This document shows positions 5,978 through 33,858 of a DNA stretch of 64,000 nt, piece by piece; the stretch's first letter is position 1; the number at the start of each line of letters is the position of its first letter. The notes beneath the pieces were generated by a model. It was given only the letters and a program-made list of their open reading frames with translations, did not search any database and was not told where the DNA came from. Position numbers and translations under genes: made by a program. This DNA comes from Rugalucina vietnamica (lineage: Eukaryota; Mollusca; Bivalvia; Lucinida; Lucinidae), in contig OZ024880.1 in NCBI GenBank assembly GCA_964017185.1, positions 36,112,329-36,176,328 on the forward strand, read 5' to 3'.

Positions 5978-6060
5978 CCTAATGTTGGGTAAAAATTCCA
6001 TAAAATCGATATCACCATGGCCGTTGACTGGGATGTAAAGCATCCGTTCAAACAAACAAA

Positions 6061-9697: not shown

Positions 9698-9788
9698 GCC
9701 TGGCGTGAAGGCATACAGTAGAGCCCCAGATTTGACGCCGCAAAACGCACCGTCTCATCTGGGGCTATTCTATTGCTTAGAGGAATTT

Positions 9789-9831
<43 letters not shown>
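9698..9831 (-). mobile_element. Partial copy of the 92-449 MITE followed by poly-A
   Basis: From GCCTGGCGTGAAGGC the sequence matches one end of the MITE at 92-449 in reverse orientation, including GCCCCAGATTTGACGCCGC and TTGCTTAGAGGAATTTC. It breaks off into an uninterrupted run of about 41 A (9790-9830). The run may be a simple-repeat expansion or an assembly artefact. Confidence 0.5.
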
Positions 9832-9833
<2 letters not shown>

Positions 9834-9870
9834 CTGATACTCCTCAAAATGAAAGTGGGCTTTTCTAGTC

Positions 9871-10392
9871 TAAACTGTACCACGCGGGTGCGCGTTTAAT
9901 GTATTTGCCCCCCTTTGGATAATACTAGTCTTTGTGTTGATTACCCTCTTGAAAGTTATTCGTTCGCGCACTTCTGCTTAATCAAGAAGAGCTTTTGTAA
10001 GTTACTGTTGAAATAAGTATGCAATAAGCACTGGTCATCAGAAACGGTGTGAACGCCCCGAAATGACGTTAGCTATTGGCTATGATGTTATGCATTAAGT
10101 AAAACAAATGCCGTATAGTATAAACGAACAGTTTACATACAATAAAGTTTAGGTCAATTTTGCCAAACAGCGACTTTCAAATTGGTCGCTGTAATAGTCA
10201 AAACAAACAACAAAGTCAACGAGAAACATATGTGTACAAATACAGTTATAAGATAAAAATAAAACAAAGTATTACATCACCGAGATCAAGCGCGGTGAGT
10301 ACAAATGATGTATCCTAAAGGCCCCAATTCCCGAAGAAAACATGTCTAGGTCTATGTTATTAAGAGACGTGCGCACCCGCGTGGTACAGTTT
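9871..10392. mobile_element. Inverted-repeat-bounded segment, 522 bp
   Basis: TAAACTGTACCACGCGGGTG at 9871 is repeated in reverse complement at the right end (10373-10392), giving terminal inverted repeats of about 24 bp. The interior is non-coding. Likely a small non-autonomous DNA transposon; its superfamily is undetermined. It ends about 60 bp from the 3' end of the TRIM gene. Confidence 0.45.
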
Positions 10393-10450
10393 ACTGAATA
10401 CATTGACTTCAATACGCATACGCTGTACATAAGCACTAATGGCATTGTCA

Positions 10451-12289
10451 TTAGTTGTAACGAAATATCTTGATTGTATCGGAATCTTCACTCGAAACCA
10501 GGAATTTGCTACAGTCTCGATTGAATGAGATATGCAATGGTTTCTTTACGCCATTTGTTTCTGTAACGAATCTCCTCAGTACCTCACCCTCTTTGTTTAA
10601 CTGAATAACTTCGTTTGCCCGAGATGAGCAGATATAGATATTCCCGTCGTTGTCGATGTTCACTCCCAATGGTCCGAGGAGGTCCGTAAACGTAAAAATA
10701 ACTTCGTCATTCTCATCTATGGCGTACATCTTGTTTTCGTCTCGGCATGAAACGTACATGACATTTCTAAATTTGTCGAACGCCAAACCAAGTGGTGCTG
10801 CAAACGTCAGTTTCGATTGAGACACCGTCTTTCCGTCCATGTTTATCATTTCAAGCCTCGATCTTCCGCTGTTCGATAGGCCGGCAAACTCTTTGTCGTT
10901 AGTGATTACCAACGGACAGAGTGAGTAGTTGGTGGATATATACTTGATAAGATAGATACTATTCCCATCTATCTCCATCATGGCTATTCTGTTGTTGTTC
11001 AGGCTGACCGCAATTGTCATTCCCTCCATCTGGACCACGCTCCACGGCATCTCCTCGAAATGTTCTTCCCCAACCATCGTGAAGGAAGGGTCGAACAATT
11101 TCAGTTGGCGATTTTTCCGATCGATGATAACTACTCTCGAATCAGGAAGGAAGAGCGACCCTGTTATTCTCGGCTGTCGCAGATTGTGTTTCGTCTTAAC
11201 GTTTACTTCCATTTCGAACTTGATTTCTTTTTCTTTGTTTTCTGGCTCTGGTTTTGGTTTTGACTTCGGAGCAGGTTTCGGAGCTTCAAATGGTAGCTTT
11301 TCAATGTTTGCCTCTGTTAGGCTTAGCTTTACTGCAAAGCATCGTTCCATTTCCTTCAACGTTTCGTCAAACCGGGCTTCGAAGAAGTTGGCTTCAATGT
11401 CGACATCATTTGCCTGCTCGTGTAGGATAGCTACTTCTTTTTCCCGTGCTCTCAGTTCAACGGTGACTCTCTGAATAGCTACAAATATCTGGATTGGGGT
11501 CCCTGCATCACGTACATTTGTGAGTGTTTTTAATGCGTCTTTCATAGCTGATTCTATTTCATCACAATTTTCGTTGTGTTTCTTTACTTTCTGACTTTCT
11601 TCCTTTCTGATACGATTCGAATCTTCTTGAATATTTGCTTCGATATTGTCGAATAGTTCCATTACCTTTTCACGTTGCAGTTGCACCCACTTTTGCGCTT
11701 TATTGATATCCAGGGATTTCATTAGTTTCTTGTCGTGTGCCTTTAGTTCTTTGACATGCTTTAGCAGTACATCAATTTCTTGCCTCAACTTTGATACGCC
11801 GCCATTCACCTCCATGTCCTTTACCCTGTCCTCGATTGCGTCGAGAACAGTGCATGTCCTGTGTTTAACAATGGCACAGTTACTGCAGAAAATCGCATCA
11901 TCATCGATACAGTAATATTTTACCTTCTTATCAGGATGCACGACACACCTGTCAATTTCTCTCAGCATTTCTTCATTTTGTTCATTTACTTTATCAATAT
12001 CAGTTATATTGTGCTTCCGTAGCTGAGTGTTCTTATCATGAACATCGCGGCATTCCACACAAAGCTTTTCATTGCAGTCAAAACAAAAGCATACAGATTC
12101 AACAATTTTCGATTCTCTTCCACAAAAATCGCATGGTTTATTAACAGGTTGCGCTAAGTTCTTATTGTCGTTTTCTCTCTCCATTTGCGATACTTCTTTC
12201 TTCGCGGCAGGCTTTTTCTTTTTCTTCACAGTCGCTTTCGGTTTCGCGTCATTTGGTTTAGACACCTTTATAGTTCCTTTGGTAGACAT
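10451..12289 (-). CDS. TRIM-like B-box / coiled-coil / beta-propeller protein
   Basis: 612 residues in a single exon. The N-terminus is strongly basic (KPKATVKKKKKPAAKKE), possibly a nuclear-localisation signal. Two zinc B-boxes follow: box 1 (C53, C56, C69, C72, C77, C80, H84, H93) and box 2 (C115, H118, C127, C135, C138, H143, C146, the last Cys where His is usual). About residues 160-350 are charged and helical, as in a coiled coil. After a Pro/Lys/Glu linker, about 365-612 show repeated blade-like strands (SRVVIIDRKNRQLKLFD, GVNIDNDGNIYICS, NKMYAIDENDEVI) like the six-bladed propeller of NHL-type TRIMs. There is no RING domain, so intrinsic ubiquitin ligase activity is doubtful. Intronless TRIM genes of this layout are heavily expanded in bivalves and often linked to innate responses; that role is inferred. 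Confidence 0.85.
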   Translation of the reverse strand: MSTKGTIKVSKPNDAKPKATVKKKKKPAAKKEVSQMERENDNKNLAQPVNKPCDFCGRESKIVESVCFCFDCNEKLCVECRDVHDKNTQLRKHNITDIDKVNEQNEEMLREIDRCVVHPDKKVKYYCIDDDAIFCSNCAIVKHRTCTVLDAIEDRVKDMEVNGGVSKLRQEIDVLLKHVKELKAHDKKLMKSLDINKAQKWVQLQREKVMELFDNIEANIQEDSNRIRKEESQKVKKHNENCDEIESAMKDALKTLTNVRDAGTPIQIFVAIQRVTVELRAREKEVAILHEQANDVDIEANFFEARFDETLKEMERCFAVKLSLTEANIEKLPFEAPKPAPKSKPKPEPENKEKEIKFEMEVNVKTKHNLRQPRITGSLFLPDSRVVIIDRKNRQLKLFDPSFTMVGEEHFEEMPWSVVQMEGMTIAVSLNNNRIAMMEIDGNSIYLIKYISTNYSLCPLVITNDKEFAGLSNSGRSRLEMINMDGKTVSQSKLTFAAPLGLAFDKFRNVMYVSCRDENKMYAIDENDEVIFTFTDLLGPLGVNIDNDGNIYICSSRANEVIQLNKEGEVLRRFVTETNGVKKPLHISFNRDCSKFLVSSEDSDTIKIFRYN

Positions 12290-12947
12290 TAGCTTTTGAC
12301 GCTTTCTACATTATTGACTAACGCATAAAAAGCTTTTTAGCTGAATTTTTGTCGTTAGAACGTCCATGATGATAACGACTAAGAAGAGAACCTTGCGTTA
12401 GTGTTTATTATTTTAAATTAATTATAAGTGTGAAATAAACATGTTTAAAATTCCAGTTTAAAGCATGCTCTAAAATGTATCAGTTTCAATGTGACAATAG
12501 TTTATAGAGAATGCTCTGTAATCACTTTTCGTTTTCACTGCACATGAAAGGAGTATAATAATCATAATAAGCTAGCGTTAAAATACTGGTCACTGCGTTT
12601 TCATTTTTCGTAATTCGATATCGTAACCAAAAGTAATTCCATTTGCATAATTTATTTCAACGCCCCAATCAACATTACATTTTTCAGTCAGTTCGGGAAC
12701 GAAATTTACAACTAAGAAGTATTAAAATAAGAATAAGAAAATGAAGAAGCAGACATTATCATCGTATTATGAAAATGGGGGTCAAGAGCATCCTCCATTC
12801 GCCTAACAATAATGACAGATATTATTTGCAAAAGGTCATGCACGATCCTCCTGCATGACATCGGTGCTATAACACGAAATGTAATTACATGTACTATCAA
12901 GGGATGTTGTTTTCCAAGAAGCCAATAAATAATTATTGTATTTTCAG
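12290..12947. other. Non-coding: TRIM upstream region and decarboxylase intron
   Basis: No repeat or frame recognised. Probable TRIM promoter sequence on the right of 12289 and intron sequence ending in the acceptor ATTTTCAG at 12940-12947. No earlier decarboxylase exon was found between 5.6 and 12.9 kb by eye, so the upstream exons may lie outside the window. Confidence 0.4.
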
Positions 12948-13026
12948 GGCCAACTCTATGACTTGGAATCCTCACAAGATGATGGGCGCCCCTCTACAGT
13001 GTTCTGCTATCTTTCTGAGAGAAAAA
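12948..13026 (+). CDS. Decarboxylase exon with PLP-lysine
   Basis: 79 bp between acceptor TTTTCAG and donor GTGCGT. One base completes a split codon, then 26 codons. NPHK holds the Schiff-base lysine of group II decarboxylases. It ends in phase 0 and matches the next exon. Confidence 0.85.
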
Positions 13027-16000
13027 GTGCGTGGTTACTGTAACTTTACCATGAGATATTGTGTATATTTTTTTCGTGCAGGCATTTTAACATATACTCC
13101 TCCTAAAAAATCCGGTCACCTATTTATGTTGCAACCACTCAACAAATAAATGAAACTTCTTTTCCATTTTTATACCCCGCCACTTCAAAAAGTGCGGGGT
13201 ATTATGTTATACCCTCCGCAAAAAATTTGTGCTCGAGTGTCCGTCCGTCCGTCTGTCCGTCCGTCTGTCCGTCCGTCCGTCCGTCAGCGCTTCGTTTCCG
13301 TGCTCTAACTTGAGCATTTATTGACCATTTTTCTTCAAACTTTGTATAGGAGTTTATATCAGGAAGGAGTGGTTTGGGATTGAAGATGGGCAAATTTCGT
13401 CAAATAAGTACAGAGTTATAGCCCTTGATTTACTTTAAAATTTCGTTTCCGTGCTCTATCTTGAGCATTTATTGACCAATTTTCTTCAAACTTTGTATAG
13501 GAGTTCATATTAAGAAGGAGTGGTTTTGGATTATAGATGGGTAAATTTCGTCAAATAAGTACAGAGTTATGGCCCTTGATTTACGTTAAAATTTCGTTTC
13601 CGGGCTCTATCTTGAGCATTTATTGACCAATTTTCTTTAAACTTTGTATAGGAGCTAATATTAAGAAGGAGTGGTTTGGGATTGAAGATGGGTAAATTTT
13701 GTTGAATACGTACAGAGTTATGGCCCTTGACTTATATTAAAATTTCGTTTCCGGCCTATATCTTGGGCATTTATAGACCAATTTTCTTCAAACTTTGTAT
13801 AGGAGTTCATATTAGGAAGGAGTGGTTTGGGATTGAAGATGGGAAAATTTCGTCAAATAAGTACAGAGTTATTGCCCTTGATTTACGTTAAAATTTCATT
13901 TTCGGGCTCTATCTGGAGCATTTATTGACCAATTTTCTTCAAATTATGTATAGGAGTTCATATCAGGAAGGAGTGGTTTGGGATTGAAGATGGGTAATTT
14001 TCGTCAAATAAATACAGAGTAATGGCCCTTGATTTATGTTACAATATTGTCTTGAGCATCTGTAGACCAATTTACTTCAGACTTTGTTAAGGAGTTCATA
14101 TCTGGAAGATGGGGTTTGGTATTGTAGATTGATGTCGTCAAGATATTATGTGCATTTGTACTAAATTAAATTTGCATGGCGGGGTATCATGCATGCCTGC
14201 AGCGCTTTTATTGTCAATTTGAAAGTACTTGACAAAATCAATTATTTTAACAGCCTTTTTGCATGCAGTGTATGTATATTGCGCATGCTCAGTTTTAAAC
14301 GCATAAAAAAGTGTAATATGGTAGTTAGGGTACAAATGGGTGGGGTAACTGGAAGGGCAGTCCAGTCTAATGACTCGCCCATGTTTGCTTCCTCTGGATA
14401 CAAATGCAACGTAGATGCCGCCGTGGTATATGGGTAAAGCTTCCCTCTTTGTATTTTGGATCAAGGGTTCGAACCAGGGCTTTTACAGCGTTCCGGGTAA
14501 AGATTCAGCATGTCCTACATATGTATGACACAATCTGTTAGTAGGACGTAAATGCCTGCCACAGCAATATTATTTTTCAATTTTGTGTTGGAAATAGAGT
14601 AATAAATGGCCTGAGCATATCAAGTAAATTTTTACAAAATAAAACAAGCTTTACAAATCGCTCAACTTTGGATGACCGGATTTTTTAGGAGGAGTATATA
14701 GTAATGTCATATTTTATTACTTCAGCCACTATGATAATTAGCTACAAATTTCAAATGCTAATGAAAAACTAATGTATCTGTTCGGTAAAACATTTATTTG
14801 ATAGAGAAATGCTCAGTTTTGAGTATTTTTTCCATGCTTGTAGGGTTTACTGGCTAGTGCCAACCAACTCGGGGCGGACTACCTCTTCCAGAAGGACAAG
14901 CTGTATGATACGCAGTACGATACTGGGGACAAGGCGATACAGTGTGGCCGACATAATGACATCTTTAAACTCTGGTTGATGTGGAGGTCAAAGGGAGATA
15001 TAGGCTTCGAGAGACAGATTGATAATAACTTCTTCCTGGCTAAGTATGTTCCCTTTGAGAGACAGATTGATAATAACTTCTTCCTGGCTAAGTATGTTCC
15101 TGATTCGCATTGCAGAGAGTTCTTTTAAAGACTTTAACGTTAATGATGGTAATGATAATTATTATTTTACTGCCGATCTTGTATGGGTTATAGATGAACC
15201 CATTTGAAAAAAAAAACAACAAACACATGATTGTCGAGAAAAATTACCTTGGTCACACATAAATGCAAACCGCCATTTTCGTCAAACGGCATTTGATCCT
15301 TCCTCACACTTTCTTGATGCATGTAGTCTCCTAAAGATGGTTGGTTGATTTGGGTCTAACGTCCCACCAACAGCTCATGTTATATGGAAACTCGGTTTTA
15401 AAGTCTCATCTCATCTTTTTGAACTTGATGATGTTTACTTTTTGCATTCTCATCGCTGAAAGCTGACGTGTAAACTAACAGTTTGATGATGAATGGTGCT
15501 TCAAAAATTGAAAGTAGTTCAACAGAACGAACGCGCGTGAATTTTGTTTTTAAAATCCACCGCCAGGTCCACTTATATACCCGCTTCTGTCTTACAGACT
15601 GGGTAACTGCCATCCGTTGTTTAAAAGGCGAGTGTCGTTACCACTGCGCCAGATAAGAGTAGTCCGTTTCCAGTGTGTATAAAATCACTTTTGAATGTAA
15701 TTTGTTTGAAAGGAGCTTACCAGCTTTATTGCACAAAAATGACGGTTGCAAATTTTAAAATGGGGAGCGCGGTGGCGTGTTGGTAGGGCACAGGACACTG
15801 CATCGAAGGGTAATGAGTCCAAGCCTGCCCTTAACTGGGAAAAGTAGATTAAAACATACTTTCGTAATAAATGTTTTTGCTACTGTACTTAAAAAAGCTA
15901 TCTAGTGGAGAAACTAAAACGACGACCGGACTTCAAACTAGTTCTGGAACAGGTAAAGCAAACTGTAGTACAGGGTGTCCCAAAAAAACGTAGCCGCTAC

Positions 16001-19000
16001 AATATAAACTTTCTAATTATTTCATTTTTACAGATAACTCAATCAAACTTTACAGGAGTATGCTTCAAAACAACGTCTTTAGATACATATAAATTGCAAT
16101 TATGTACTAAGCCTAATATCCAAACTGACCACCATTATTGTACATGGCCACTTTTGGAGTAACGAAAATTTTACACAACACATTTGATGGTCGTTCACTC
16201 CCAATTTGGGAATAAAATTTCAATTTTTCACCACATTTTGTCAAGTTTTTAATACACACTTTTATTTTCTGATAATTATCAGTACTTCATCCTCTTAATA
16301 ACCTTTTTTAGGGATAATAAAGGCTTGAAAATGCTTCGATATTGCATTTTGTTGATGCTTTTCATTTCCATGAATGCGAGTTCCAGCTGTTAACAGGAAG
16401 TGACATCACAAATTCGTTATGACGTCACTTGCTAATGAAGCACCAGCTAGCAAACTGGATGTCATATTTTGAATCAAGTATAATAGCATTACCACTGTGT
16501 AAAATATCTTGCTTATATCTGTTTTATTTACAAAGTTTTGCTCTTTTTGTAGCGGCTACGTTTTTTGGGACACCCATGCATCACGAAAACTTGCCTATGC
16601 TATATACAGGGATTTTTTCAGAAGCAAAAATTGAAAATTTCATTGGAAAATCATTGATATTTTTAATATTTTAGCTCAAAACATTGATTGTGGGTACACG
16701 TTAGAACTCCTCGCCGAGGCGGTTCTAACGAGTACCCACAATCTATGTTTTGGATTAAAAATAAGAAAATTAGGTATACCCTTGCAAACCCCATTTTTCT
16801 CTATGAAAGTGGGGTTCAAGGGGGTATACTTTTCATGGACATGTTTTCCTGATGGTATGTCGTCTACTGTTGTTGTAGATAATAGTGCTTGTTGAAAATC
16901 GTTGTTGGAAATCAATGTTCGGAAGACCGTGACAAGAGACATGGTGGAACTGTTATGATATTGTACATGTAATGAACTTTATTTGTATGTTGCTTTGGCT
17001 GAAAAGAGTACTAAAATGCATTTTGCGTTGTTGTTTTTTGTTTGTATTGATTTTTGTTTGTTTCTTTTGTTTTTGCTTTTGTTTAGGTCAAGTTGTCAGT
17101 AAAACACACGTATAGCCATGTGATTTGAGGTGCGGTCGTTGCTAATGAATGAATTTAAGAAATTCCTCAAAATATTACAAAACAAACTCTTGCACATATA
17201 AAGCTACAGATAAAAGAAAGACAGAGCCCATCACTAAATTAGTATTTCTAGGTCAGGTCAGTTTAACTGCTACTGTAACATGTAATCAGTACTACCTGTT
17301 GTCATGCGGTGCAGATGGGGCTCGTTAGCCTTGGAAGGCAACTCATCTAAGAGTTAAGCTAGTTCTCTACACAAAAATCTAGCTGGGCAGGGGGAACTCA
17401 TTAGTCTTGGTTGACAGTCCTCCTAGGAGTTTACAGGTCTCTAAACAAAACCTAAGGAAGGGTAGATGGAGCTCTTCAGCTGTGGCCAGCAATTCATCTA
17501 GGAGAAGGAAACTCCAAAATCAAACCTGTGTGTCTGGATATGCCTAGTCCAGATATGCAAAGACTGTTTCGGTAGATGGAGCGGAAGAAAACCTGATTCA
17601 ACGGTTCAGAAAGCGATACAGCAACATGTTGTGGAACATGCAGAGCGTGACAAGGCACTAAAGATGTTACGGTCATCCACTGCATCCAAACCCAACTCCA
17701 GACGTCTTGACCTGTGTCTTGCCTCTGGGCGCAGCTGGGCGAGGACTAGAGAGTGAGGTTGACGTTGCGCACCTCTTCCTCACTATAATCCAATTTCATA
17801 GCGCATGTCATCTTATTTTTCAACACACAAGCACTTGCATACACAACAATTTCATCACACTTGCACCCACATACCTACAAAGTCCTGTGGCGATGGGCGA
17901 GTGGCGAAGCAGCAGGTGTATGACACACTGGGAGCTGTAGTTGCAGACCTGCACACAGGCGGCTCAGTTCTAATGGTCGCTTTCTGTGAGGAGAAGCAGT
18001 AAGCAGAATTCGGCAGTCGGCTGAGCGACTGAGCAGACCTATTTAGGACCGCACTGCTCACCCCGTAGCATGGGGAAGGGGCTAGAAAAGGTGCCCTAAA
18101 CAATTGCCTGCTTCAAACCCCCTGGCTGGTTAACCGCGATCAGCGGGGATCCCCTTAAGCGGTCGAAATACAAAGAAAAAAGCTAGAGTAATTCTTTTAT
18201 GGATTGGCGCATGGAATGTACTTTAACTTTAATGGACAATGGACTTTAATGGACAATGCTGGGTCAGATAGACCACAGCGTAGAACGGCCCTTGTGGGCA
18301 GAGAACTTGGGAGGTATGATATACAGATAGCTGCATTGAGTGAGACTCGGTTCGCAGATGTTGGGGAGATCAAAGAAGTTGGTGCTGGATACACCTTCTT
18401 CTGGAGTGGACGCAAAAGTGAAGAGAGGCGTGAAGCAGGAGTTGGCTTTGCCATCAAAACAGAACTTGTTGGTAAGCTGTCAGGATTGCCAAAAGGCATT
18501 AATGACCGTCTAATGACATTGAGACTTCCTCTGTCAGGCAATAAACATGCAACTATTGTCAGTGCTTATGCACCCACAATGACCAATCCAAATGAGGTCA
18601 AGGACAAGTTCTATGATGACCTAGACAATGTTATTTCTGCAACACCCCGCACAGACAAGCTTATCCTTCTTGGCGACTTTAATGCCAGAGTGGGTACAGA
18701 CAACCAGACCTGGGAAGGAGTTATAGGTCCAGAAGGGGTTGGAAAGTGCAACAGCAATGGTGTCTTGCTTCTCAGGAAGTGTGCTGAACATGACCTTCTA
18801 ATCACCAACACAGTCTTCCGTCTACCTAATAGGAACAAAACATCCTGGATGCATCCCCGTTCCAAACACTGGCATCTCATAGACTATGTCATAGTGCGGA
18901 GAACAGACAGGCAGGATGTTAAAGTGACAAAGACTATGTGTGGTGCAGACTGCTGGACAGATCATAGACTGGTTGTCAGCAAACTCAACCTAAGAATACA

Positions 19001-22000
19001 GCCTGCGAGGCGACCTCAAGGCAAGAAAGCTCCTAAGAGACTGGATGTCTCAAAGCTGAACAATGACAGCATGAGACAAGATTTCTTAACAGACATTTGC
19101 GACCAACTGGATGCAATGAATCTCAGTTCAGAGGACCCCGAAGAAAATTGGACAGTTTTCCATAAAACAGTTCTTTCTTCAGCTGCAAGCACCTTAGGCC
19201 ATCCATCTCGCAAACATCAAGACTGGTTTGATGAGAATGATGACGAAATTCAGAGGCTTCTTGAAGAAAAGCACCGATTGCACAAGGCACATCAAGATGA
19301 TACTAGCTCAGTATCAAAGAAAGCAGCCTACAGCAACATTTGTAAGACAGTCCAGACCAAGCTTAGGGACACGCAAGATTCCTGGCTGAGGAAGAAAACA
19401 GAAGAAATTCAGTCTTTTGCGGATAGAAAGGACATGAAGAAATTTCATGATGCACTGAAAACCATTTATGGTCCAAAGAGTTCTGGAGCCACCACATTGC
19501 TCAGTGCAGATGGAAACACTCTTCTCACAGATAAAGAAGCTATCTTGGAAAGGTGGGCAGAACACTTCAATAGTGTGCTTAATCGACCATCAAGCATCAA
19601 TGAGGATGCAATCGACAGACTTCCACAGATAGAGTGCAATGTTCTGTCAGATGAATTTCCTACCGTTACGGAAACAAGAAAAGCAGTTCAACAACTATCA
19701 TCTGGCAAAGCCCCAGGTGCAGATGCAATTCCTGCCGAAGTTTACAAGGCTGGAGGTATACCCATGGCAGAGAAACTGACAGAGTTGTTTCACTGTATGT
19801 GGAGAAAGGAGGCTATCCCACAAGAATTTAAGGATGCATCCATAATCCACCTATACAAGCGGAAAGGAAATCCTCAAGTCTGTGACAATCACAGAGGCAT
19901 CTCCCTCCTATCAATTGCTGGGAAGATACTTGCAAAAATTCTGTTGAATCGTCTGAATGTTCATCTTGATCAGACGGGACTTATCCCAGAAAGTCAATGT
20001 GGATTCAGAAAAGACAGAGGGACAATAGACATGATATTCATAGCAAGACAGCTTCAGGAGAAATGCCAAGAACAGAATGTAGATCTTTACATGACGTTTG
20101 TTGACCTCACCAAAGCTTTTGACACTGTTAGTCGTGATGGACTCTGGAAAATCATGGCCAAGTTTGGCTGTTCACCCAGATTCATAGCAATGGTGCGGCA
20201 GTTTCATGATGGCATGCAGGCACGTGTGCAAAATGATGGAGAGTTCTCTGAACCATTTGAAGTAACAAATGGGGTCAAACAAGGCTGTGTTCTGGCACCA
20301 ACACTGTTCAGCATGATGTTTTCTGCCATGCTTATGGATGCTTTTCAGGACAGTGACACTGGTTTTCCAATCAGGTACCGTTTTGATGGCAACATATTCA
20401 ACCTCAGAAGGTTGCAAGCCAAAACTAAGGTCCAGACTGATGTGCTAGATGAGCTCCTCTATGCAGATGATATGGATAAGAATGCCAGCACAGAGGCAAA
20501 AATGCAAAGAGCCATGGATCAAGTCTCACAGTCATGTGATAACTATGATATCACAATCAGCACAAAAAAGACAGAGGTTGTACACCAACCAGCGCCCGGA
20601 AAGCCATATAATGAACCAACCATCACTGTGAATGGGCAAAAACTGAAAGTTGTTGACAAGTTCACCTACCTGGGAAGCACTCTCTCCAGAGCAGTGCATA
20701 TTGATGATGAGATCACTGCCAGAATTGCAAAGGCTAGTGTGGCATTCGGACGACTCCGTGCAAATGTCTGGGAGCGAAATGGAATCAAGCTTGACACCAA
20801 GCTGAAAGTCTACAAGGCTGTGGTACTGCCAACCCTCTTGTATGCATGTGAGACCTGGACAGTATACCAACGCCATGCAAAGAGACTTAACCATTTCCAC
20901 TTAAGCTGTTTGAGAAAGTTGTTAAAAATCAAGTGGCAGGACAAGATTCCAGACACAGAGGTCCTGACGAAAGCAGGGATGCAAAGCATGCATACAGTCT
21001 TAAAGCTAGCACAGCTAAGATGGACTGGCCATGTTATAAGAATGCCTGATGCGCGACTTCCAAAGAAAGTTTTCTATGGAGAACTACAGGAGGGAAAGCG
21101 CTCTCAAGGTGGCCAGAAGAAACGCTACAAAGACACCCTCAAAGCCTCTCTGAAGGATTTCGAAATACCAATGGGGTCCTGGGAACAGACTGCACAGGAG
21201 CGATCAAAGTGGCGAGGTCTCATCAACAAAGGAGCAGCTCTTTATGAAAAGAAGAGAATCTGTGAAGCTGAAAGAAAGCGAAGAGAGCGCAAAGCCAAAA
21301 CAAATGTGCCACCATCAGACTCTATGACATTGACTTGCTCTACTTGCAACCGACAGTTTAGAGCCAGAATTGGCCTAGTCAGCCATCAAAGAACTCACCG
21401 ACACACATCAGCACTATTCAAGAAATAATGATGGTCTTTCTCATTAGTGAGAGACGAACTATCAGTATTTAAAGTAAGTTTCCTAGTATCTGATAATGTT
21501 TTTTTTCCAGATCTGTTTAATCTGCATCTGTTTAAATGAAATCTTTTCTGGGCACAATTAAGCATTTAGTTTGTCGCAAAATGCGCAGCACAAGTTTTGA
21601 AAATCGGTTGACAAATAAAAAAGTTCTGACCCAAAACATTTTTGAGTAGGGATTTTCTGCACAAAAATCTCATGAAAGGGAGGTTAATGTTTTCCTGCAA
21701 AACTTCCTGGTATTTCATTATGATTGCTCAAAATCATTATAAAGTGACACAGATCACTTACATGAGACAAAATCTTCATGATCAAGTAATAATTTTCGAA
21801 AATTACCCATTTTCATGATCATGGATTATCTCCCATGCCAATGCAAAATCCTTATTCAAAATGCATGTTGGCCATTAAAACTTTATCTGCTGGCCGATTT
21901 TCATTTTTACAGGTCCTATTAGGACAAACTAATATCAAGATTTTGATATAAAAATAAATTTCCTGTCTTCCTCAAAACAAAATTTTCTGCGAAAAACCGA

Positions 22001-24615
22001 TTTTATGATTTAGATTTTTTTTTTCAGATTGAAGGTCCTAATGTTTGTTTCTGGTTTTTACCAGAGGATATTCGAAAAATGGAAGATGGGGAAAGAAAAA
22101 ATAAAGAGTTGCATAAGGTAGGTCCTCAGATGGAGAAGGGATCCATGATGCTACAGTATCAGCCCCTTCCTGGCCTGCCTAACTTTTTAGCTTAAATCTC
22201 AATAAATTTGTCCCCACCCCCTTTATCTCAGGTTGCCTCCCGGCTAAAGTCTATGATGATGGAGAAGGGTATCATGACAATATACTACTTGCCCCTAGTA
22301 GGGGTCCTGTCCATGTTCTTACGAATAGCCTACCCCAATACTAACACCCATGTATGTCTGTTACAAATATTTTTTTTTTAGCTCACCTGAGCCGAAGGCT
22401 CACAGGTGAGCTTATAGGATAGGCAGGCATCCGTCGTCCGTCGTCGTCGTCCGTCGTCGTCGTCCGTCCACAATTTCAAAGAAGAATATTTCTGAAGCTA
22501 GTGGGCCGATCTTGATCAAATTTAATGTGAACCATAATTGGGTTGGGGGATTGATGGCATTAGGTTTCGGAGCAGATTGTATCAAAATTGTGGTTTCCAT
22601 GGCAACAGATAGGTCCCATAGACTTACAATGGGAAAAACTAAAAAAATCTTTTTCTCTCAAACCACTAGGCCCACAGCTTTGATATTTGGTATGTAGCAA
22701 TGGCTAATGGTCCTCTACATAAATTGTGCCATTCATGCCCCTGGGGTCAAATTTGGCCACGCCCCGGGGGTCGATAGTCTCCATAGACTTACTATGGGAA
22801 AAAATTCAAAAATCTTCTTCTCTGAAACCACTAGGCCCACGGCTTTGATATTTGGTATGTAGCAATGGCTAATGGTCCTCTACATAAATTGTGCCAGCCA
22901 TGTCCCTTGGGTCAAATTTGGCCACGCCCCGGGGGTCGATAGTCTCCATAGACTTACAATTGGAAAAACTAAAAAAATCTTCTTCTCTGAAACCACTAGG
23001 CCCACAGCTTTGATATTTGGTATGTAGCAATGGCTAATGGTCCTCTACATAAATTGTGCCATTCATGCCCCTGGGGTCAAATTTGGCCAGGCCCCGGGGG
23101 TTGATAGTCTCCATAGACTTACTATGGGAAAAAATAAAAAATCTTCTTCTCTGAAACCACAGGGCCCACAGCTTTGATATTTTGTAGGTGGCAATGGCTA
23201 ATGGTCCTCTACATAAATTGTGCCAATCATGCCCCTGGGGTCAAATTTGGCCACGCCCCGGGGGTCGATAGTCTCCATAGACCTACAATAGGAAAAAAAC
23301 TAAAAAAATCTTCTTCTCTGAAACCACTAGGCCAACAGCTTTGATATTTGATATGTAGCAATGGCTAATGGTCCTCTACATAAATTGTGCCATTCATGCC
23401 CCTGGGGTCAAATTTGGCCACGCCCCGGGGGTTTATAGTCTCCATAGACTTACTATGGGAAAAAAATTCAAAAATCTTCTTCTCTGAAACCACAGGGCCC
23501 ACAGCTTTGATATTTTGTATGTGGCAATGGCTAATGGTCCTCTACATAAATTGTGCCAATCATGTCCCCGGGGTCAAATTTGGCCACGCCCCAGGGGTCG
23601 ATAGACCTACAGTAGGAAAAACTAAAAAAATCTTCTTCTCTGAAACCACTAGGCCCACAGCTTTGATATTTGGTATGTAGCAATGGCTAATGGTCCTCTA
23701 CATAAATTGTGCCATTCATGCCCCTGGGGTCAAATTTGGCCAGGCCCCGGAGGTTGATAGTCTCAATAGACTTGCTATGGGAAAAAAATTCAAAAATCTT
23801 CTTCTCTGAAACCACAGGGCACACAGCTTTGATATTTTGTATGTGGCAATGGCTAATGGTCCTCTACATAAATTGTGCCAGCCATGCCCCTGGTGTCAAA
23901 TTTGGCCACGCCCCGGGGGTAGATAGTCTCCATAGACTTACAATGGGAAAAACTAACAAAAATCTTCTTCTCTGAAACCAAAAGGCCCAGAGCTTCTATA
24001 TTTTGTATGTAGCAATGTTTGGTAGTCCCCATTATAAATTGTGCCAGTCATGCCCCTGGGTCAAATTTGGCCATGCCCCGGGGGCAATAGTGTCCATGCA
24101 TAGACTTTCATTGGTCGATTCTCAATTAATTTAAATCTCATGAGCTTACAATGTGATAATCTCTCAGGTGAGCTACAGGACCAATGGTCCTCTAGTTACT
24201 ATAACTAGTATCATTTCTTAAAAATATGTCCCTTCTTTTATGCTTCCTTTAACTGAGATTGCTTCACGACTGAAGGCCATGTTGATGAAGGGGTCCATGA
24301 TGATACAGTACCAGACCCCAGGGGACTTAGCCAACTTCGGAACCAGACCCCAGGGGACTTAGCCAACTTTTTTCCGTACTAGCTTAAAATCTAATTTTTA
24401 TCATGTTTTTAAGTTCGTCCCCACTCTTTTTATTTCAGGTTGCATCCCGGCTGAAGGCTATGATGATGGAGAAGGGGTCCATGATGATCCAGTACCAGCC
24501 CCTGGGGGACTTACCCAATTTCTTCCGCATAGCGTTCTCTAACCCAGCCATCACTACAGGGGACATAGATTACGTGGTGGAGGAAATAGCCAGGCTGGGG
24601 AAACAGCTGGAGTGA
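12948..24615 (+). CDS. PLP-dependent acidic amino-acid decarboxylase (GAD/CSAD group), 3' part, 5 exons
   Basis: Exons 12948-13026, 14844-15043, 15899-15953, 22028-22117 and 24439-24615 join with matching phases (2/0, 0/2, 2/0, 0/0, 0/stop) into 199 codons plus stop. All have GT-AG borders. Exon 1 carries the pyridoxal-phosphate lysine motif [16 protein letters not shown]. Exon 2 reads [15 protein letters not shown]...[22 protein letters not shown], a signature of glutamate, cysteine-sulfinate and GADL1 decarboxylases. The end reads [15 protein letters not shown]...NFFR...[11 protein letters not shown]. The enzyme should make GABA, hypotaurine or beta-alanine in the cytosol; substrate cannot be chosen from this half. 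The N-terminal half is not visible. Introns hold a LINE, MITEs and a satellite-bearing element, and the last exon and the exon 2 donor are duplicated. Confidence 0.85.
13095..14696. mobile_element. TA-flanked TIR element, 1602 bp, hosting a pearl-like insertion
   Basis: A perfect inverted repeat beginning TACTCCTCCTAAAAAATCCG and extending through GTCA (about 24-27 bp) marks both ends, with TA directly outside each (13093-13094 and 14697-14698). This is the pattern of a Tc1/mariner-type non-autonomous element. The 13173-14186 satellite-bearing element sits inside it, so the outer element is older. Confidence 0.55.
13173..14186. mobile_element. Pearl-like element: microsatellite plus about six 147-bp tandem units
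   Basis: It opens TACCCCGCCACTTC and closes with the inverted GGCGGGGTA. After a hairpin come a (CCGT/CTGT)n microsatellite (13238-13285) and about six tandem units marked by GACCAATTTTCTTCAAACTT at roughly 13321, 13468, 13617, 13764, 13912 and 14060. The last unit is the most diverged. The order terminus, microsatellite, tandem core, terminus is that of bivalve pearl-type elements. Confidence 0.6.
14844..15043 (+). CDS. Decarboxylase exon 2, with duplicated donor
   Basis: Opens after CTTGTAG in phase 0 and reads 66 codons plus two bases to GCTAA before donor GTATGT. The last 48 bp, including that donor, are repeated in tandem directly downstream (15044-15091), so a second identical donor follows. 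Using the second one lengthens the exon by exactly 16 codons with no stop. Confidence 0.85.
15350..15665 (-). repeat. tRNA-derived SINE, decayed, minus strand
   Basis: Read on the minus strand from about 15660, GGCGCAGTGGTAACGACACT resembles the pol III A box of a tRNA and GATGGCAGTTACCC is a degraded B box. The remainder runs down to about 15350. The tRNA cloverleaf cannot be closed, so it is SINE-derived and not a tRNA gene. Confidence 0.4.
15765..15840 (+). repeat. tRNA-like SINE head, plus strand
   Basis: GCGCGGTGGCGTGTTGGTAG followed about 45 bp later by GAGTCCAAGCCTGCCC resembles degraded A and B boxes. It lies about 60 bp before a decarboxylase exon. Too decayed to be a functional tRNA. 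Confidence 0.35.
15899..15953 (+). CDS. Decarboxylase exon 3 (55 bp micro-exon)
   Basis: After acceptor TTAAAAAAG, one base completes the codon and 18 codons read [18 protein letters not shown] to donor GTAAAG. This matches the YLVEEMKKREGFELVME stretch typical of the family. The acceptor tract is purine-rich and weak, but frame and similarity on both sides fix the exon. Confidence 0.8.
15973..16575. mobile_element. 603-bp TIR element, mariner-like termini
   Basis: GGGTGTCCCAAAAAAACGTA at the left end and its reverse complement at 16548-16575 form about 27-bp inverted repeats ending in GTAGCCGCTAC. GGGTGTCCC-type ends are common in mariner-like elements. It starts 20 bp after the donor of the 55-bp decarboxylase exon. 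No transposase is visible. Confidence 0.55.
16581..16855 (-). mobile_element. Palindromic MITE, AACATAGATTG family, copy 1
   Basis: About 275 bp with GAAAACatG-type ends inverted (CGAAAACTTGCC left, GGACATGTTTTC right) and a long central palindrome: AACATTGATTGTGGGTACAC mirrored around CTCGCCGAGG. Other copies lie at 25036, 25690, 26222, 27139, 38450, 38733 and 39848. Confidence 0.6.
16856..17312. other. Intron sequence without recognised features
   Basis: AT-rich, with a T/G-rich run near 17025-17085. No frame or inverted repeat stands out. Confidence 0.3.
17313..21480 (+). mobile_element. APE-type non-LTR retrotransposon (LINE), near full length
   Basis: The element holds one long frame (18204-21428) and a roughly 0.9 kb 5' leader. 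The leader starts with three imperfect repeats of about 70 bp (from about 17313, 17389 and 17461), each with a CTAGGAG/CTAAGAG block and an ACAAAA tail. It lies in the decarboxylase intron between the 55-bp and 90-bp exons in the same orientation. The exact 5' and 3' borders and any target duplication could not be fixed. The 3' side carries a small CTCATTAGTGAG hairpin just after the stop. Confidence 0.7.
18204..21428 (+). CDS. LINE polyprotein: APE endonuclease, reverse transcriptase, C2H2 finger
   Basis: 1074 residues. The endonuclease shows [24 protein letters not shown] and CWTDHRLV. The RT shows [31 protein letters not shown], the motif A aspartate in [20 protein letters not shown], the catalytic LLYADD and [12 protein letters not shown]-terminal [17 protein letters not shown] region is followed by a CCHH finger, [21 protein letters not shown]. 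The frame is unbroken, but its first codons are abnormal: the start is TTG, and the usual WNV...MDN opening of the endonuclease is split between frames by small duplications at 18221-18260, including a 17-bp direct repeat. The copy is probably catalytically damaged at its N-terminus. Clade is not assigned. Confidence 0.85.
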   Translation: MAHGMYFNFNGQWTLMDNAGSDRPQRRTALVGRELGRYDIQIAALSETRFADVGEIKEVGAGYTFFWSGRKSEERREAGVGFAIKTELVGKLSGLPKGINDRLMTLRLPLSGNKHATIVSAYAPTMTNPNEVKDKFYDDLDNVISATPRTDKLILLGDFNARVGTDNQTWEGVIGPEGVGKCNSNGVLLLRKCAEHDLLITNTVFRLPNRNKTSWMHPRSKHWHLIDYVIVRRTDRQDVKVTKTMCGADCWTDHRLVVSKLNLRIQPARRPQGKKAPKRLDVSKLNNDSMRQDFLTDICDQLDAMNLSSEDPEENWTVFHKTVLSSAASTLGHPSRKHQDWFDENDDEIQRLLEEKHRLHKAHQDDTSSVSKKAAYSNICKTVQTKLRDTQDSWLRKKTEEIQSFADRKDMKKFHDALKTIYGPKSSGATTLLSADGNTLLTDKEAILERWAEHFNSVLNRPSSINEDAIDRLPQIECNVLSDEFPTVTETRKAVQQLSSGKAPGADAIPAEVYKAGGIPMAEKLTELFHCMWRKEAIPQEFKDASIIHLYKRKGNPQVCDNHRGISLLSIAGKILAKILLNRLNVHLDQTGLIPESQCGFRKDRGTIDMIFIARQLQEKCQEQNVDLYMTFVDLTKAFDTVSRDGLWKIMAKFGCSPRFIAMVRQFHDGMQARVQNDGEFSEPFEVTNGVKQGCVLAPTLFSMMFSAMLMDAFQDSDTGFPIRYRFDGNIFNLRRLQAKTKVQTDVLDELLYADDMDKNASTEAKMQRAMDQVSQSCDNYDITISTKKTEVVHQPAPGKPYNEPTITVNGQKLKVVDKFTYLGSTLSRAVHIDDEITARIAKASVAFGRLRANVWERNGIKLDTKLKVYKAVVLPTLLYACETWTVYQRHAKRLNHFHLSCLRKLLKIKWQDKIPDTEVLTKAGMQSMHTVLKLAQLRWTGHVIRMPDARLPKKVFYGELQEGKRSQGGQKKRYKDTLKASLKDFEIPMGSWEQTAQERSKWRGLINKGAALYEKKRICEAERKRRERKAKTNVPPSDSMTLTCSTCNRQFRARIGLVSHQRTHRHTSALFKK
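21429..22027. other. Intron; contains a 50-bp tract shared with 44043
   Basis: No gene. AGGTCCTATTAGGACAAACT (21912 onward) plus GATTTTGATATAAAAATAA recurs almost unchanged at 44043-44092. A long pyrimidine tract (22013-22025) forms the acceptor of the next decarboxylase exon. Confidence 0.45.
22028..22117 (+). CDS. Decarboxylase exon 4
   Basis: Exactly 30 codons between TTTTTTTCAG and donor GTAGGT, phase 0 on both sides, reading [19 protein letters not shown] and ending ELHK. It matches the NVCFW...P segment of GAD/CSAD. The intron that should follow is reduced here: 8 bp after the exon a partial terminal-exon copy begins, still in frame. Confidence 0.85.
22126..22195 (+). pseudogene. Terminal-exon copy 1 (partial, fused to exon 4)
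   Basis: Reads [19 protein letters not shown] then LA and TAA, clearly a copy of the middle of the real last exon. Reading through the exon 4 donor enters it in frame via four codons (VGPQ). Unspliced transcripts would therefore end with a shortened but homologous C-terminus. Confidence 0.65.
22232..22356 (+). pseudogene. Terminal-exon copy 2 (open, divergent)
   Basis: Starts after a good acceptor (TTATCTCAG) in the correct phase 0: [20 protein letters not shown], then a drifted stretch to [19 protein letters not shown] donor-like site follows. No stop inside, but the conserved YQPLGD and the DIDYVVEEI tail are gone. Either a decaying exon or a rarely used alternative exon. Confidence 0.6.
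22357..24195 (-). mobile_element. Helentron-like / pearl-type element A with nine 163-168 bp tandem units
   Basis: Read on the minus strand it ends with a hairpin (GAGCC loop GGCTC) and AGGTGAGCTAA. The other end carries the inverted GCTCACCTGAG and the palindrome AGGACCATTGGTCCT. A (CGTCGTCC)n microsatellite lies at 22430-22470. The core is nine tandem units marked by CCACTAGGCCCACAGCTTTG near 22664, 22827, 22994, 23157, 23325, 23489, 23645, 23810 and 23977. Related copies B, C and D are at 32053-33566, 52405-54335 and 29643-30361. The hairpin plus CTAA end and subterminal inverted repeats are as in non-autonomous Helentrons; this is an inference. Confidence 0.6.
24259..24372 (+). pseudogene. 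Terminal-exon copy 3 (broken)
   Basis: Begins [19 protein letters not shown], with one codon pair lost relative to the intact exon, then PGDLANF. A 35-bp internal direct repeat (GACCCCAGGGGACTTAGCCA twice) shifts it into a stop. Only about 65 bp before the functional exon. Confidence 0.65.
24439..24615 (+). CDS. Decarboxylase terminal exon (intact)
   Basis: 58 codons and TGA after acceptor TATTTCAG, phase 0. It reads [20 protein letters not shown] and ends [13 protein letters not shown], the standard GAD/CSAD ending. Chosen as the functional copy because it alone keeps the whole segment in frame. A candidate AATAAA lies in the A-rich run near 24740. Confidence 0.85.
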   Translation, partial: VASRLKAMMMEKGSMMIQYQPLGDLPNFFRIAFSNPAITTGDIDYVVEEIARLGKQLE

Positions 24616-24967
24616 AGAAACTGACTGATAGATAGCCTGGCTAGGTTAATAGATGGACTGATGCCAATTAGTATAGAAACTATGAGACTATAGCTTTTAT
24701 ATATTTTGGCCAGGCTGGGAAAACAACTGTGTAAAAAAAAAAATAAAATAGCATAATAATAACAACTGGACAGATGCCATTAGAGATTATGAAGTGTAAA
24801 ATATATTTAGTGATGAATTTGGTACAGAAACAAATGGACTGAAGACATGAGATGATAAAAAATATACGATTAAGTTATGAAAATATGAATTTACTAGCTA
24901 TAACTTTTCTGAATCTTTCTGTTACATGTCCTAAAATCTGTGTAAGCAATCTAAACAATCTTAAATG

Positions 24968-25424
24968 GATACCCTAAAATCCAGTACCAGCCACTATTGG
25001 ACCTGTTCACCTTTTCCTTTATGGCGTTCTGGACATCAGGAAAACATGTCCGTGAAATCTCGAAGCAATATGTGATCTTCCTTCGAGGTGAAATGTATAC
25101 CCCCTTGAACCCCACTTTTAGATAGAAAAACTGGGGTTTGCAGGGGTATACCTATTTTTCTTATTTTTGCTCCAAAACATAGATTGTGGGTACTCGTTAG
25201 AACCGCCTCGGCGAGGCGTTAACGTGTACCCACAATCTATGTTTTGAGCAAAAAATATGAAAAATATCAAATTTTTTCCTCTGAAAATTATCGATCTTTG
25301 ACCTGAAAAAATTACTGTATATCATATGGGCATGTTTTCGTAATGGAACCCAGCTATCACTACAGGGGACATAGATTATGTGGTGGTGGAAATAGCCAGG
25401 CTGGGGAAACAGCTGGAGTGAGGA
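24968..25424 (+). pseudogene. Terminal-exon copy 5, split by a MITE
   Basis: The left part (24968-25035) reads IQYQPLLDLFTFSFMAFW and the right part (25347-25424) [20 protein letters not shown] to TGA. Between them sits a palindromic MITE (25036-25346). The right part is nearly identical to the intact exon and continues into a copy of its 3' UTR (GGGTTAATAGATGGACTGAT), so the duplication included UTR. Confidence 0.65.
25036..25346 (+). mobile_element. Palindromic MITE, AACATAGATTG family, copy 2
   Basis: Opens GGAAAACATGTCCGTG and closes GGGCATGTTTTCGTAATG. The central palindrome is AACATAGATTGTGGGTACTC with CCTCGGCGAGG at the axis. It interrupts a decarboxylase terminal-exon copy. Confidence 0.65.
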
Positions 25425-25689
25425 AACTGGGAGATTGCCTGGATGGGTTAATAGATGGACTGATGCCATCAGAAGATACATACATGTATATTGAATAATA
25501 TATCTATTGATATTTCTACAAAAACAAACAGACTGATCCTGATAATTAGCAAAGTTGAAAAATATAAATTGTGACAGTACTGGATCTATAAGTATAACTT
25601 TCCTAAATTCTAGCTTAGCCAGGGTGAAGAAACTTTGTCATGAAAAATAGATGAATTCAGAAAATAATAGATGACTGCAATTTGTTTCA

Positions 25690-26221: not shown

Positions 26222-26488
26222 GCAAACATGTCCGTGAAATGAATACCCCCTTATACCCATTTTTATATAGAAAAACTTGGGTATGGAGTGGTATTCATAT
26301 TTTTTCTAATTTTTGCTCCAAAACATAAATTGTGAGTACTTGTTAGAACCGCCTCGTCTGACGTCAAGGCGGTTCATCTATGTTTTGAGCAAAAATAAGA
26401 AAAATATCAAAAATGTTCTACTGAAAATTTTCGATTTTTACAACTTAAATTTTTTTTTTATATTACATGGGTGTGTTTTCGTAATGTC
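26222..26488 (+). mobile_element. Palindromic MITE, AACATAGATTG family, copy 4
   Basis: Opens GCAAACATGTCCGTG and closes GGTGTGTTTTCGTAATG. The second palindrome arm is shortened (AAGGCGGTTCATCTATG). Its right half is part of the 792-bp tandem duplication. Confidence 0.6.
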
Positions 26489-31378: not shown

Positions 31379-31705
31379 CGCAGTGGTGAAATGGATAGCA
31401 TATTCGCTTAGCAATCTAGAGGTTGTGGGTTCGAATACCGGCCCCGATAGCTCAAGTGGTAGAGCGTCCGCTTCGGGATCGGGAGATCGCAGGTTCGATC
31501 CTCGGCCGCGCCATACCAAAGGCGTAAAAAATGGTACTGGTAGCTCCCTTGCTGACGCTCGCAATAAAAGGGTAGTTCCAGGAAGATACAAGAAGGCAGG
31601 TAAGTATCTGTTAACGATATTTGTTATGTCGCATAATAGCTCATGAGCTAATGTTGTCTGTTGAAAACGCGACGTTAAATAAAGCTTCTTTATCTTTATC
31701 TTTAC
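31379..31705 (+). repeat. tRNA-derived SINE (with a second tRNA-like module upstream)
   Basis: 31441-31515 resembles a tRNA: GCTCAAGTGGTAGAGC D-arm, a TTCGGGA loop (anticodon position CGG) and B box GCAGGTTCGATCC, but acceptor and T stems have mismatches. A body with GCTCGCAATAAAAGGGTAG and a tail GCGACGTTAAATAAAGC ending in (TTTATC)n follows, as in mollusc SINEs. Just upstream, 31379-31440 is another tRNA-like unit (GGGTTCGAATACCGG). The frames here on both strands are by-products. Confidence 0.65.
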
Positions 31706-32052
31706 CTGGCACATATGCCTGTCATGTTGGTGACAAATGTTCACCCTGACGTAATTAAGGAAACCGCCCATAGGGTGTAACATTTTTTTAACATTAGACA
31801 TACATGTATAGCAAAAAATCATTTGGGGAGCCATAACATCGATGCGTTATATTAAAAACCACCCTTTAATGTGGGGCATTATAATGAAGTTGAACTTGAA
31901 GTTGAAATGGAAAATGTGGAGTAAAAACATCATAATTTGTGAGATGTGAATTATCATTTCTGCAAAATGCGGATAGATTTGTTTCTTGTCAAGCTGAAGT
32001 AACTTAAATGGGAGATTTAGAGCATTTAATGAGGTGTAAAGAATTCTAAACC
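31706..32052. other. Non-coding, nothing recognised
   Basis: AT-rich spacer between the SINE and the Helentron-like copy B. Confidence 0.3.
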
Positions 32053-33566
32053 AGAGGACCAATGGTCCTGTAAACGCTCACCTGAGATCAGCTGCATATA
32101 CCAATAAACATGTTTGAATATTATGGTATTTAACTCCAGTGCAGGGGCAGATAAGCCCTTGGGCCATTTTCTTTTTTCAGAATCTTCAATATTCTGTCCA
32201 TTTGCCAATTTCCTGTTGGCTTTTTCCTTCAAATGACATTTTAACAGTTTTCCCAATTCAGATGCACAGGCAACCCATGTTGACCTTGCCATAAACTTGG
32301 TCAAGGTCATCACAGGGTCATGATTTATATATACATTGAAGTACTTTAGCCATCGATGCCTCACGCCAAGTTTCCTTGATATCAGTCTATTGGTTTCAGA
32401 GAAGATGATTTTTGATGGGTTTTTACCATATATGGGCATGGCGGCCATCTTGGTCATGTGACCTAGATTATTTATATACACATTGATTCCCCCATTCTAT
32501 AGATGCTTCACTTAAAATTTGGCTTTGTTTGGCCAAGCGGTTTCAGAGGAGAAGACGTTTGAATATTATGGAAATATACATGTATATTGCCCCGGGGTGG
32601 GGGCACATGAGCCCCTGGGGTCCAATTTTTTTCAGAATCATTAATATCCAGTCCTACTGCCCATTTCCTGCAAGACTTTCACTTTAAATGACATTTTAAA
32701 AGTTTTCCTCATTCAAATGCATTGGTGACCTATGTTGACCTTCCCGTAATATAGGTCAAGGTCATCACAGGGTAATGATTTATATACACATAGTAGTGCT
32801 TGAGCCATCGATGCTTCGTGCCAAGTTTCGTTGAAATCGGTCAACCGGTTCTGGAGAAGAAGTTTTTTGAACAGTTTTTACCATATATGGGCATGGCGGC
32901 CATCTTGGTCATGTGACCTGGATTTTTTATATACATATTTGTTACCCCTTCCTATTGATGCTTCACATAAAATTTCGCTTTGATTGGCCAAGCGGTTTCA
33001 GAGGAGAAGATGTTTGAATATTATGGAGATATACATGTATATTGCCCCGGGGTGGGGGCGGATGAGCCCCTGGTGCCCAATTTTTTTCAGAATCATTAAT
33101 ATTCAGTCCTACTGCTCATTTTCTGCAAGATTTTTCCTTTAAATGACAATTTAACAATTTTTCCCATTCAAATGCATTCGCGACCTATGTTGACCTTGCC
33201 GTAAAATAGGTCAAGGTCATCATAGGGTCATGATTTATATACACATTGTAGTGCTTGAGCCATTAATGCTTCATGCCAAGTTTGGTTGAAATCGGTCCAG
33301 TGGTTCCGGAGAAGAAGATTTTTGAAGGGTTTTTACCATATATGGGCATGGCGGCCATCTTGGTCATGTGACCTGGATTATTTATATATACATTGATTCC
33401 CCCTTCCCATAGATGCTTCATTTAAAATTTGGCTTTGATTGGCCAAGCGGTTTCAGAGGAGAAGATCTTTGAAAATGGTGGACGACGGACGACGGACGGA
33501 CGGACGGACGACGGAGCATGGGTATACTATAAGCTCACCTTGTGAGCCTAACGGCTCAGGTGAGCT
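32053..33566 (+). mobile_element. Helentron-like element B with about 457-bp internal repeats
   Basis: Begins CAGAGGACCAATGGTCCTGT then GCTCACCTGAG. Ends with a (GACGGACG)n run, a GAGCC/GGCTC hairpin and AGGTGAGCTAA. The body repeats a roughly 457-bp unit (GCCCCGGGGTGGGGGC near 32590 and 33047) with TGTTGACCTTG and GGTCAAGGTCATCA in each unit. No coding capacity. Confidence 0.65.
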
Positions 33567-33858
33567 AATCAAAGGAAAATTTTAAAACTCTTTGATCAAG
33601 CTTCTTTTGTGAAGATTTAATTATAAACAAAATAATACGGAACATGTAATTCTTTTTCTTCCACTTATTCTTTTTGGCAAGAATGAGCGCACAGATTAGG
33701 TAATCTGCCTTTGGTGGGCTTGATAAGGAACACTGAGCAATTATTGTACCTGTTTAGCTTTAACATTCAGTAACAAAACAAAGATTCATTATCGTAGGAG
33801 GATCTGTTATACTCGTAAAGCACTCTTAAAGCATATAACACAATCCCCCAGAATCATG

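Follow-up and report, generated by a model that had tools for sequence, protein, structure and literature searches.

Genes are well known to gain alternative protein isoforms through tandem duplication of exons, and exon clusters that are in use keep their exons intact; the fate of failed duplicate exons has, in our impression, less often been followed. Here we describe an array of terminal exons in a gene for an acidic amino-acid decarboxylase of the bivalve Rugalucina vietnamica, contained in a stretch of 64,000 nucleotides (contig OZ024880.1, positions 36,112,329 to 36,176,328; hereafter the window). About 10% of animal genes contain tandemly duplicated exons, a figure cited in PMC9013439. 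The closest case that we found is the oyster gene AOX (Crassostrea virginica and C. gigas), whose terminal exon 10 is tandemly duplicated together with part of the 3′ untranslated region (UTR), both copies being expressed, the later one conserved and the first more diverged, with 63.5 to 65.9% likeness in DNA (PMC5589949).

The present array is a further case of duplicated terminal exons, larger and mostly decayed. It resembles that of AOX in the tandem duplication of a terminal exon with part of the 3′ UTR and in the conservation of a later copy over the first. In contrast to the two AOX copies, which are of equal coding length and both expressed, there are five copies here, only one of them full-length, in a gene for a different enzyme. 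As in tandem exon clusters such as the terminal exons of Drosophila pip, the copies are homologous, in one orientation and within one gene, but unlike in clusters that are used, most of them are broken. The open-access literature searched gave no account of terminal-exon duplication, or of alternative terminal exons, in the GAD/CSAD/GADL1 family. We favor, at a probability of roughly 0.55, the explanation that the last exon was duplicated serially and that the extra copies formerly served as coding, alternative last exons and have since decayed, leaving the fourth copy as the working exon. One gene holds a graded series of last exons, the best of them intact and the worst almost gone, in which the lost copies bear marks of earlier selection, and may represent a case of terminal-exon birth and death.

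The decarboxylase gene and the copies of its last exon

The decarboxylase gene lies on the + strand and has six exons in the window (473–537, 12948–13026, 14844–15043, 15898–15952, 22028–22117 and 24439–24615), which when joined form a single open frame with a terminal stop. The split gene, the enzyme family and the types of mobile element are all as expected of animal DNA. The joined protein resembles the human enzymes GAD67/GAD65, CSAD and GADL1 (PDB 3vp6/2okj, 2okk, 2jis, 6enz), with phmmer E-values of 4e-89 for GAD1 over 219 aligned residues, 2.6e-85 for GAD2, 4.1e-74 for CSAD and 3.5e-65 for GADL1. It also matched Pfam family PF00282 (8.9e-46, residues 1–142, ending before the last exon), and one exon encodes an NPHK motif that aligns with the NPHK of GAD1 and CSAD. 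The lysine of this motif binds pyridoxal phosphate (PLP). By similarity and motif the predicted product is a member of the PLP-dependent acidic amino-acid decarboxylases (GAD/CSAD/GADL1 group), and the name given to it in an earlier note on this DNA, acidic amino-acid decarboxylase, is correct at the level of the group. As to subfamily, the best scores were to GAD1, for the C-terminal part of the protein, the N-terminal half being beyond the window; no N-terminal decarboxylase exons were seen in the window, and these presumably lie to its left.

Each of the six exons was searched against the window by blastn (E ≤ 0.001), with tblastn also used for the copies. Around the intact last exon, c4, four further partial copies (c1, c2, c3 and c5) were found within 3.4 kb, in the following arrangement:

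22028–22117, + strand: penultimate exon; ends ELHK; donor GTAGGT in phase 0; phmmer matches to GAD1 and CSAD; acceptor score 8.94, donor score 10.01
22130–22195, + strand: copy 1 (c1); seed at 22129–22167 (39 nt, 89.7% identity), protein match to 22189; head absent
22203–22231, + strand: spacer and acceptor before copy 2; homologous to 24410–24438 (23/29 bases)
22232–22381, + strand: copy 2 (c2); blastn match at 22232–22329, 74.5% identity over 98 columns
22380–24195, + strand: HINE/Helentron-like element between c2 and c3; about nine 165-bp core repeats (TRF)
24258–24376, + strand: copy 3 (c3); 83.1% identity over 83 columns at 24259–24338; second piece at 24342–24376
24439–24615, + strand: copy 4 (c4), the intact terminal exon; 58 codons and stop; AATAAA at 24742
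24977–25036, + strand: first piece of copy 5 (c5a), weak; IQYQPLLDL...; 40/62 aligned bases identical
25037–25346, + strand: miniature inverted-repeat transposable element (MITE) splitting copy 5, its left end with some extra sequence of unknown origin
25347–25468, + strand: second piece of copy 5 (c5b); exon end, stop and start of the 3′ UTR; 113/122 bases identical to c4

The blastn scores against the last exon were 123 bits for 25347–25421 (96% identity, with likeness extending into the 3′ UTR to 25468), 86.0 for 24259–24338, 63.5 for 22232–22329, 53.6 for 22129–22167 and 33.7 for 24342–24376. The highest last-exon score in 50 Markov-1 random windows was 31.0 bits, so that the claim of repeated last-exon versions in 3.4 kb is borne out by the four best matches (53.6 to 123 bits), while the 33.7-bit piece taken alone barely exceeds chance. 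For c5a, a 17-nt core with 16 matches was equalled by none of 1000 shuffles. These are homologous copies on one strand of one gene, that is, a tandemly duplicated exon array. The intact exon is indeed fourth in order, as had been proposed. The earlier note gave variants of one 20-letter motif for all five copies, but not all of them have the full motif, as c1 starts at MEKGSMM and c5a at IQYQP.

The copies differ in their present state. All splice scores given here were computed with our own splice matrices. The acceptors of c2 and c4 score 12.0 and 12.1, which ranks them in the highest 0.24% and 0.21%, respectively, of all AGs of the window, and that of c3 (GAG) is weak at 0.47; the three copies share start phase 0, c1 and c5 being partial. 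The good acceptors of c2 and c4 and the weaker one of c3 had been described before; the start of c3 is corrected to 24258. Usable splice signals together with an open frame are present in c4 and largely in c2, and are missing from c1, c3 and c5. In c2, 49 codons are open up to a stop (22379) that borders the inserted element. After 22351 a donor-like GTATGT in phase 0 scores 5.87 (5.99 for the donor of exon B), which would allow a 120-nt cassette. A single gap lies within the aligned coding part of c2 and another within that of c3, of 3 nt each.

Only c4 is complete, and c1, c3 and c5 are structurally decayed. The copy c3 has a 3-nt deletion, an internal tandem duplication that gives rise to 24342–24376, and a stop at 24360. 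The AG of c1 ends just 12 nt past the end of exon 22028–22117, leaving c1 with no usable acceptor; that exon reads in frame across its own donor into c1 as far as a TAA at 22193, with an AATAAA at 22201. This arrangement is no more than suggestive and could be chance, as 24% of positions begin a stretch of 25 open codons, and an AATAAA starts within 20 nt of 57 of the 1534 TAA triplets. The last copy has no head and, as the earlier note had recognised, brings part of the 3′ UTR and is split by a MITE, which has relatives in the window at 26234–26486, 16579–16835, 38748–39008 and 39813–40079. The likeness of c5 to c4 is patchy (40/62 before the MITE, 113/122 in 25347–25468 and 126/177 for the remaining UTR), a pattern that points to local conversion or to an old copy with a younger piece inside it.

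Some other parts of the gene are duplicated or have weak splice sites. The other five exons matched only themselves by blastn in the window, and TRF reported what the exon blastn run did not, a 48-bp tandem duplication (15005–15100, 47/48 identical) that takes in the last part of exon C together with the GTATGT donor. The result is two equal donors 48 nt apart, each scoring 4.1, of which the second would add 16 in-frame residues. Weaker sites in the gene are the acceptors of 15898–15952 (-3.15) and 473–537 (3.55) and the donor after 15043 (4.1). The 3′ UTR at 24614–24860 holds degenerate repeats of the exon end, for instance at 24709–24729 (19/21 bases, equalled by 0/1000 shuffles), indicating that local duplication continued beyond the stop codon.

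Substitution pattern and order of duplication

Silent and replacement differences from c4 number 10 and 5 for c1 (11.7 silent and 48.3 replacement sites), 12 and 15 for c2 (23.3 and 81.7), 7 and 5 for c3 (17.0 and 64.0) and 2 and 1 for c5b (17.7 and 54.3). We fitted a codon model with one mutation clock in which the c4 lineage had its own omega (the replacement-to-silent rate ratio) and the copies were either neutral from birth or shared a free omega. Neutrality since birth was rejected, with twice the log-likelihood difference (2dL) at 12.38 on the best null branching order, 12.4 to 14.9 across the six branching orders tried, and an omega of 0.31 for the copies. If constraint had been complete and then lost, this value would correspond to constraint over about 70% of the copies' existence.

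The result was obtained under a range of settings. Setting codon frequencies by codon position raised 2dL to 20.7 and window frequencies lowered it to 9.3; trimming c1 to its DNA seed still gave 10.15, and leaving c1 out reduced the statistic to 5.75, reached in 6 of 200 bootstraps. When three codon-frequency settings were crossed with five copy sets, omega was below 1 in every one of the 15 cases (0.15 to 0.46; 2dL 4.2 to 20.7), and a star tree without a clock gave a 2dL of 15.3. The excess of silent change is specific to the coding frame, as a significant omega below 1 was obtained in the true frame only, of six. Four of the control frames gave omega above 1 (2dL 5.0, 5.5, 8.3 and 9.1), which is expected if the third positions of the true frame land elsewhere in them, and the fifth gave 0.68 (2dL 1.0). 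Taken jointly, the copies appear not to have decayed neutrally from birth, a history rejected at about 1 in 162 bootstraps. The earlier note had held that neutral substitution in all copies other than c4 would tell against its proposal, and neither the joint codon test nor the frame control found this.

The spacers between copies bear on how the array grew. The acceptor regions before c2 and c4 are alike in 23/29 bases, a likeness matched by 1 of 1000 shuffles, and TAGCTTAAA follows both c1 and c3, ahead of this spacer type. The resemblance of the c1–c2 spacer to the c3–c4 spacer implies that intron and exon were copied together. The spacer before c3 has no significant likeness to those before c2 and c4 (105 and 655 of 1000 shuffles as good), nor has the stretch before c1 to that before c4 (401 of 1000). 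Within the 54 columns common to c1–c4, two two-state sites support the split of c1 and c2 from c3 and c4, and no such site supports a split of c1 and c3 from c2 and c4. A strict duplication of pairs (c1 with c3, c2 with c4) has the support of the spacers but not of these sites, so that the array may have grown either by block copying or stepwise, with the order of events differing between the two.

Silent divergence from c4 is 0.12 for c5b, 0.60 for c3 and 0.87 for c2, and is saturated for c1. This range makes a single burst unlikely, with the reservation that conversion may have reset c5b. The proposal of decay after a burst of unequal crossover accordingly stands for the decayed condition of c1, c3 and c5, and fails as an account of pure decay since birth and probably as one of a single burst. 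For the other proposal of the note, a source of alternative C-termini, c2 would be the candidate, as no other extra copy has a strong acceptor. Two other origins were considered. An artefact of assembling two haplotypes is disfavored, as c1–c4 are only 65 to 85% alike. Retrocopying is disfavored for c1–c4 by the homologous intron-like spacer that precedes c2 and c4 and follows c1 and c3; c5 starts with no visible intron, and a retro-origin is possible for that copy.

Competing explanations and predicted consequences for the enzyme

In our preferred explanation, the terminal exon would have been tandemly duplicated several times along with its acceptor and flanking intron, the duplication that formed c5 taking the 3′ UTR along. 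The extra copies would then have been alternative last exons, or would have alternated as the last exon, and through such use selection would have acted on their protein sequence during a large part of their history, until later decay left c4 as the working exon. A HINE/Helentron-like element now parts c2 from c3 and a MITE splits c5, and part of c5 may have been re-homogenised with c4. We infer that the past constraint came from alternative last-exon use in the decarboxylase gene and that c4 is now its main exon; for most copies, coding function is probably past and not present.

Several considerations weigh against this explanation. The sample is small, c1–c3 contributing 20 to 35 codons each, likeness of the proteins had some part in the choice of the alignments, and one of the 162 parametric bootstraps on the best order did reach 12.38. 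In pairwise comparisons with c4, 2dL was 10.6 for c1, 4.5 for c2, 3.2 for c3 and 0.65 for c5, so that for c2, c3 or c5 singly the evidence against neutrality is weak; for c2 and c3 the fit with constraint on the copy gave the higher omega to c4, leaving the constrained branch ambiguous. Setting c2 and c5 neutral on the star tree cost only about 2.9 in 2dL, which means that the signal comes mostly from c1 and c3 and that c2 alone fits neutral decay acceptably. In addition, c2 has replaced near-universal residues (YQP, NFF), and in simulations of four random changes to the acceptor, 7 to 14% retained a score at the level of c2, whose strong acceptor is therefore not by itself proof of selection. 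The constraint may also date from a time when the copies belonged to another gene, before their arrival here.

This last consideration is taken furthest by the supposition of a chimaeric locus, in which each copy is the last exon of a tandem paralogue that was formerly complete and has lost its remaining exons by deletion, the constraint having been served in those other genes. Such a history would account for the long constraint and for the 3′ UTR in c5, but no remnant of another paralogue exon was seen in the window, and what lies between c1 and c2 and between c3 and c4 is an intron-like spacer and not a 3′ UTR; we regard it as the least probable of the explanations considered. We also judge it unlikely, though less so, that the copies, produced by unequal crossover or replication slippage, were nonfunctional from the start and have drifted neutrally with c4 always the sole working exon. 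The truncations, stops and insertions of c1, c3 and c5 would be expected from it, and the locus duplicates readily, as seen from the 48 bp at 15005–15100 and the pieces in the 3′ UTR, but the rejection of neutrality since birth (1/162 bootstraps, and 6/200 with c1 left out) and the restriction of constraint to the coding frame both oppose it.

More doubtful than neutral drift from birth is the supposition that the enzyme still makes several C-termini: a full-length form ending in c4, a form in which c2, as last exon or in-frame cassette, supplies a changed tail or a 40-residue in-frame duplication, and a truncated subunit from c1 as a composite terminal exon polyadenylated at the AATAAA at 22201. 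The c2 acceptor rivals that of c4, its 49 codons are open and its GTATGT is in phase 0; c1 continues the frame of the upstream exon and has an AATAAA behind it; and oyster AOX uses both members of such a pair. Against this, the near-universal residues of c2 are gone and its frame ends at the edge of a mobile element, the c1 arrangement could be chance at the frequencies given above, and the predicted c2 and c1 read-through products have no Pfam match at 1e-3, bearing in mind that in the normal protein, too, the Pfam match does not extend into the last exon. Under our preferred explanation, low-level present use of c2 through its own acceptor, as a 49-codon end or a 120-nt in-frame cassette, is possible, and present use of c1 by read-through of the donor and early polyadenylation is possible too, if less likely than that of c2.

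The predicted effect on the enzyme differs between copies. With GAD67 at 594 residues, counting back in the alignment puts Arg567 at the R of NFFR; c4 (NFFR) and c2 (MFLR) have this position, whereas c1 and c3 lack it. Arg567 of GAD67 and Arg558 of GAD65 are given a substrate-contact role in PMC12961736. As the Arg567 position is missing from c1 and c3, subunits with either of these endings would probably be inactive, and a c2 ending would probably yield an altered subunit. Were several C-termini still made, short forms lacking a substrate contact of the Arg567 type could be regulatory or poisoning partners in the dimer.

Mobile elements and other features of the window

The element between c2 and c3 is one of three HINE/Helentron-like elements in the window (22380–24195, 32049–33568 on the - strand and 52403–54340 on the - strand). 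They have a common start, TTAGCTCACCTGAGCC, and end in a GGACCAATGGTCC or GGACCATTGGTCC hairpin with CTCTAG or CTCTGG before TT, end signals like those of the HINE/Helentron class. HINE/Helentron elements with satellite-like repeats in oyster, described in PMC7492417, resemble the three elements.

The intron before exon 22028 holds an intact frame of 1074 aa at 18204–21428, with endonuclease and reverse transcriptase domains (PF03372, PF14529, PF00078), which is probably a young non-LTR (long terminal repeat) retrotransposon. A frame at 1177–2898 (573 aa) has by eye the look of a Penelope-type reverse transcriptase, with no Pfam match at 1e-3. Two other frames, a short-chain dehydrogenase of 262 aa at 4772–5560 on the + strand (PF13561/PF00106) and a B-box protein of 619 aa at 10451–12310 on the opposite (-) strand, both appear to lie inside one large decarboxylase intron (538–12947). 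Rfam gave no match in the window at gathering scores, and the sole tRNA found in the window is a predicted tRNA-Pro (cgg) at 31440–31513 on the + strand.

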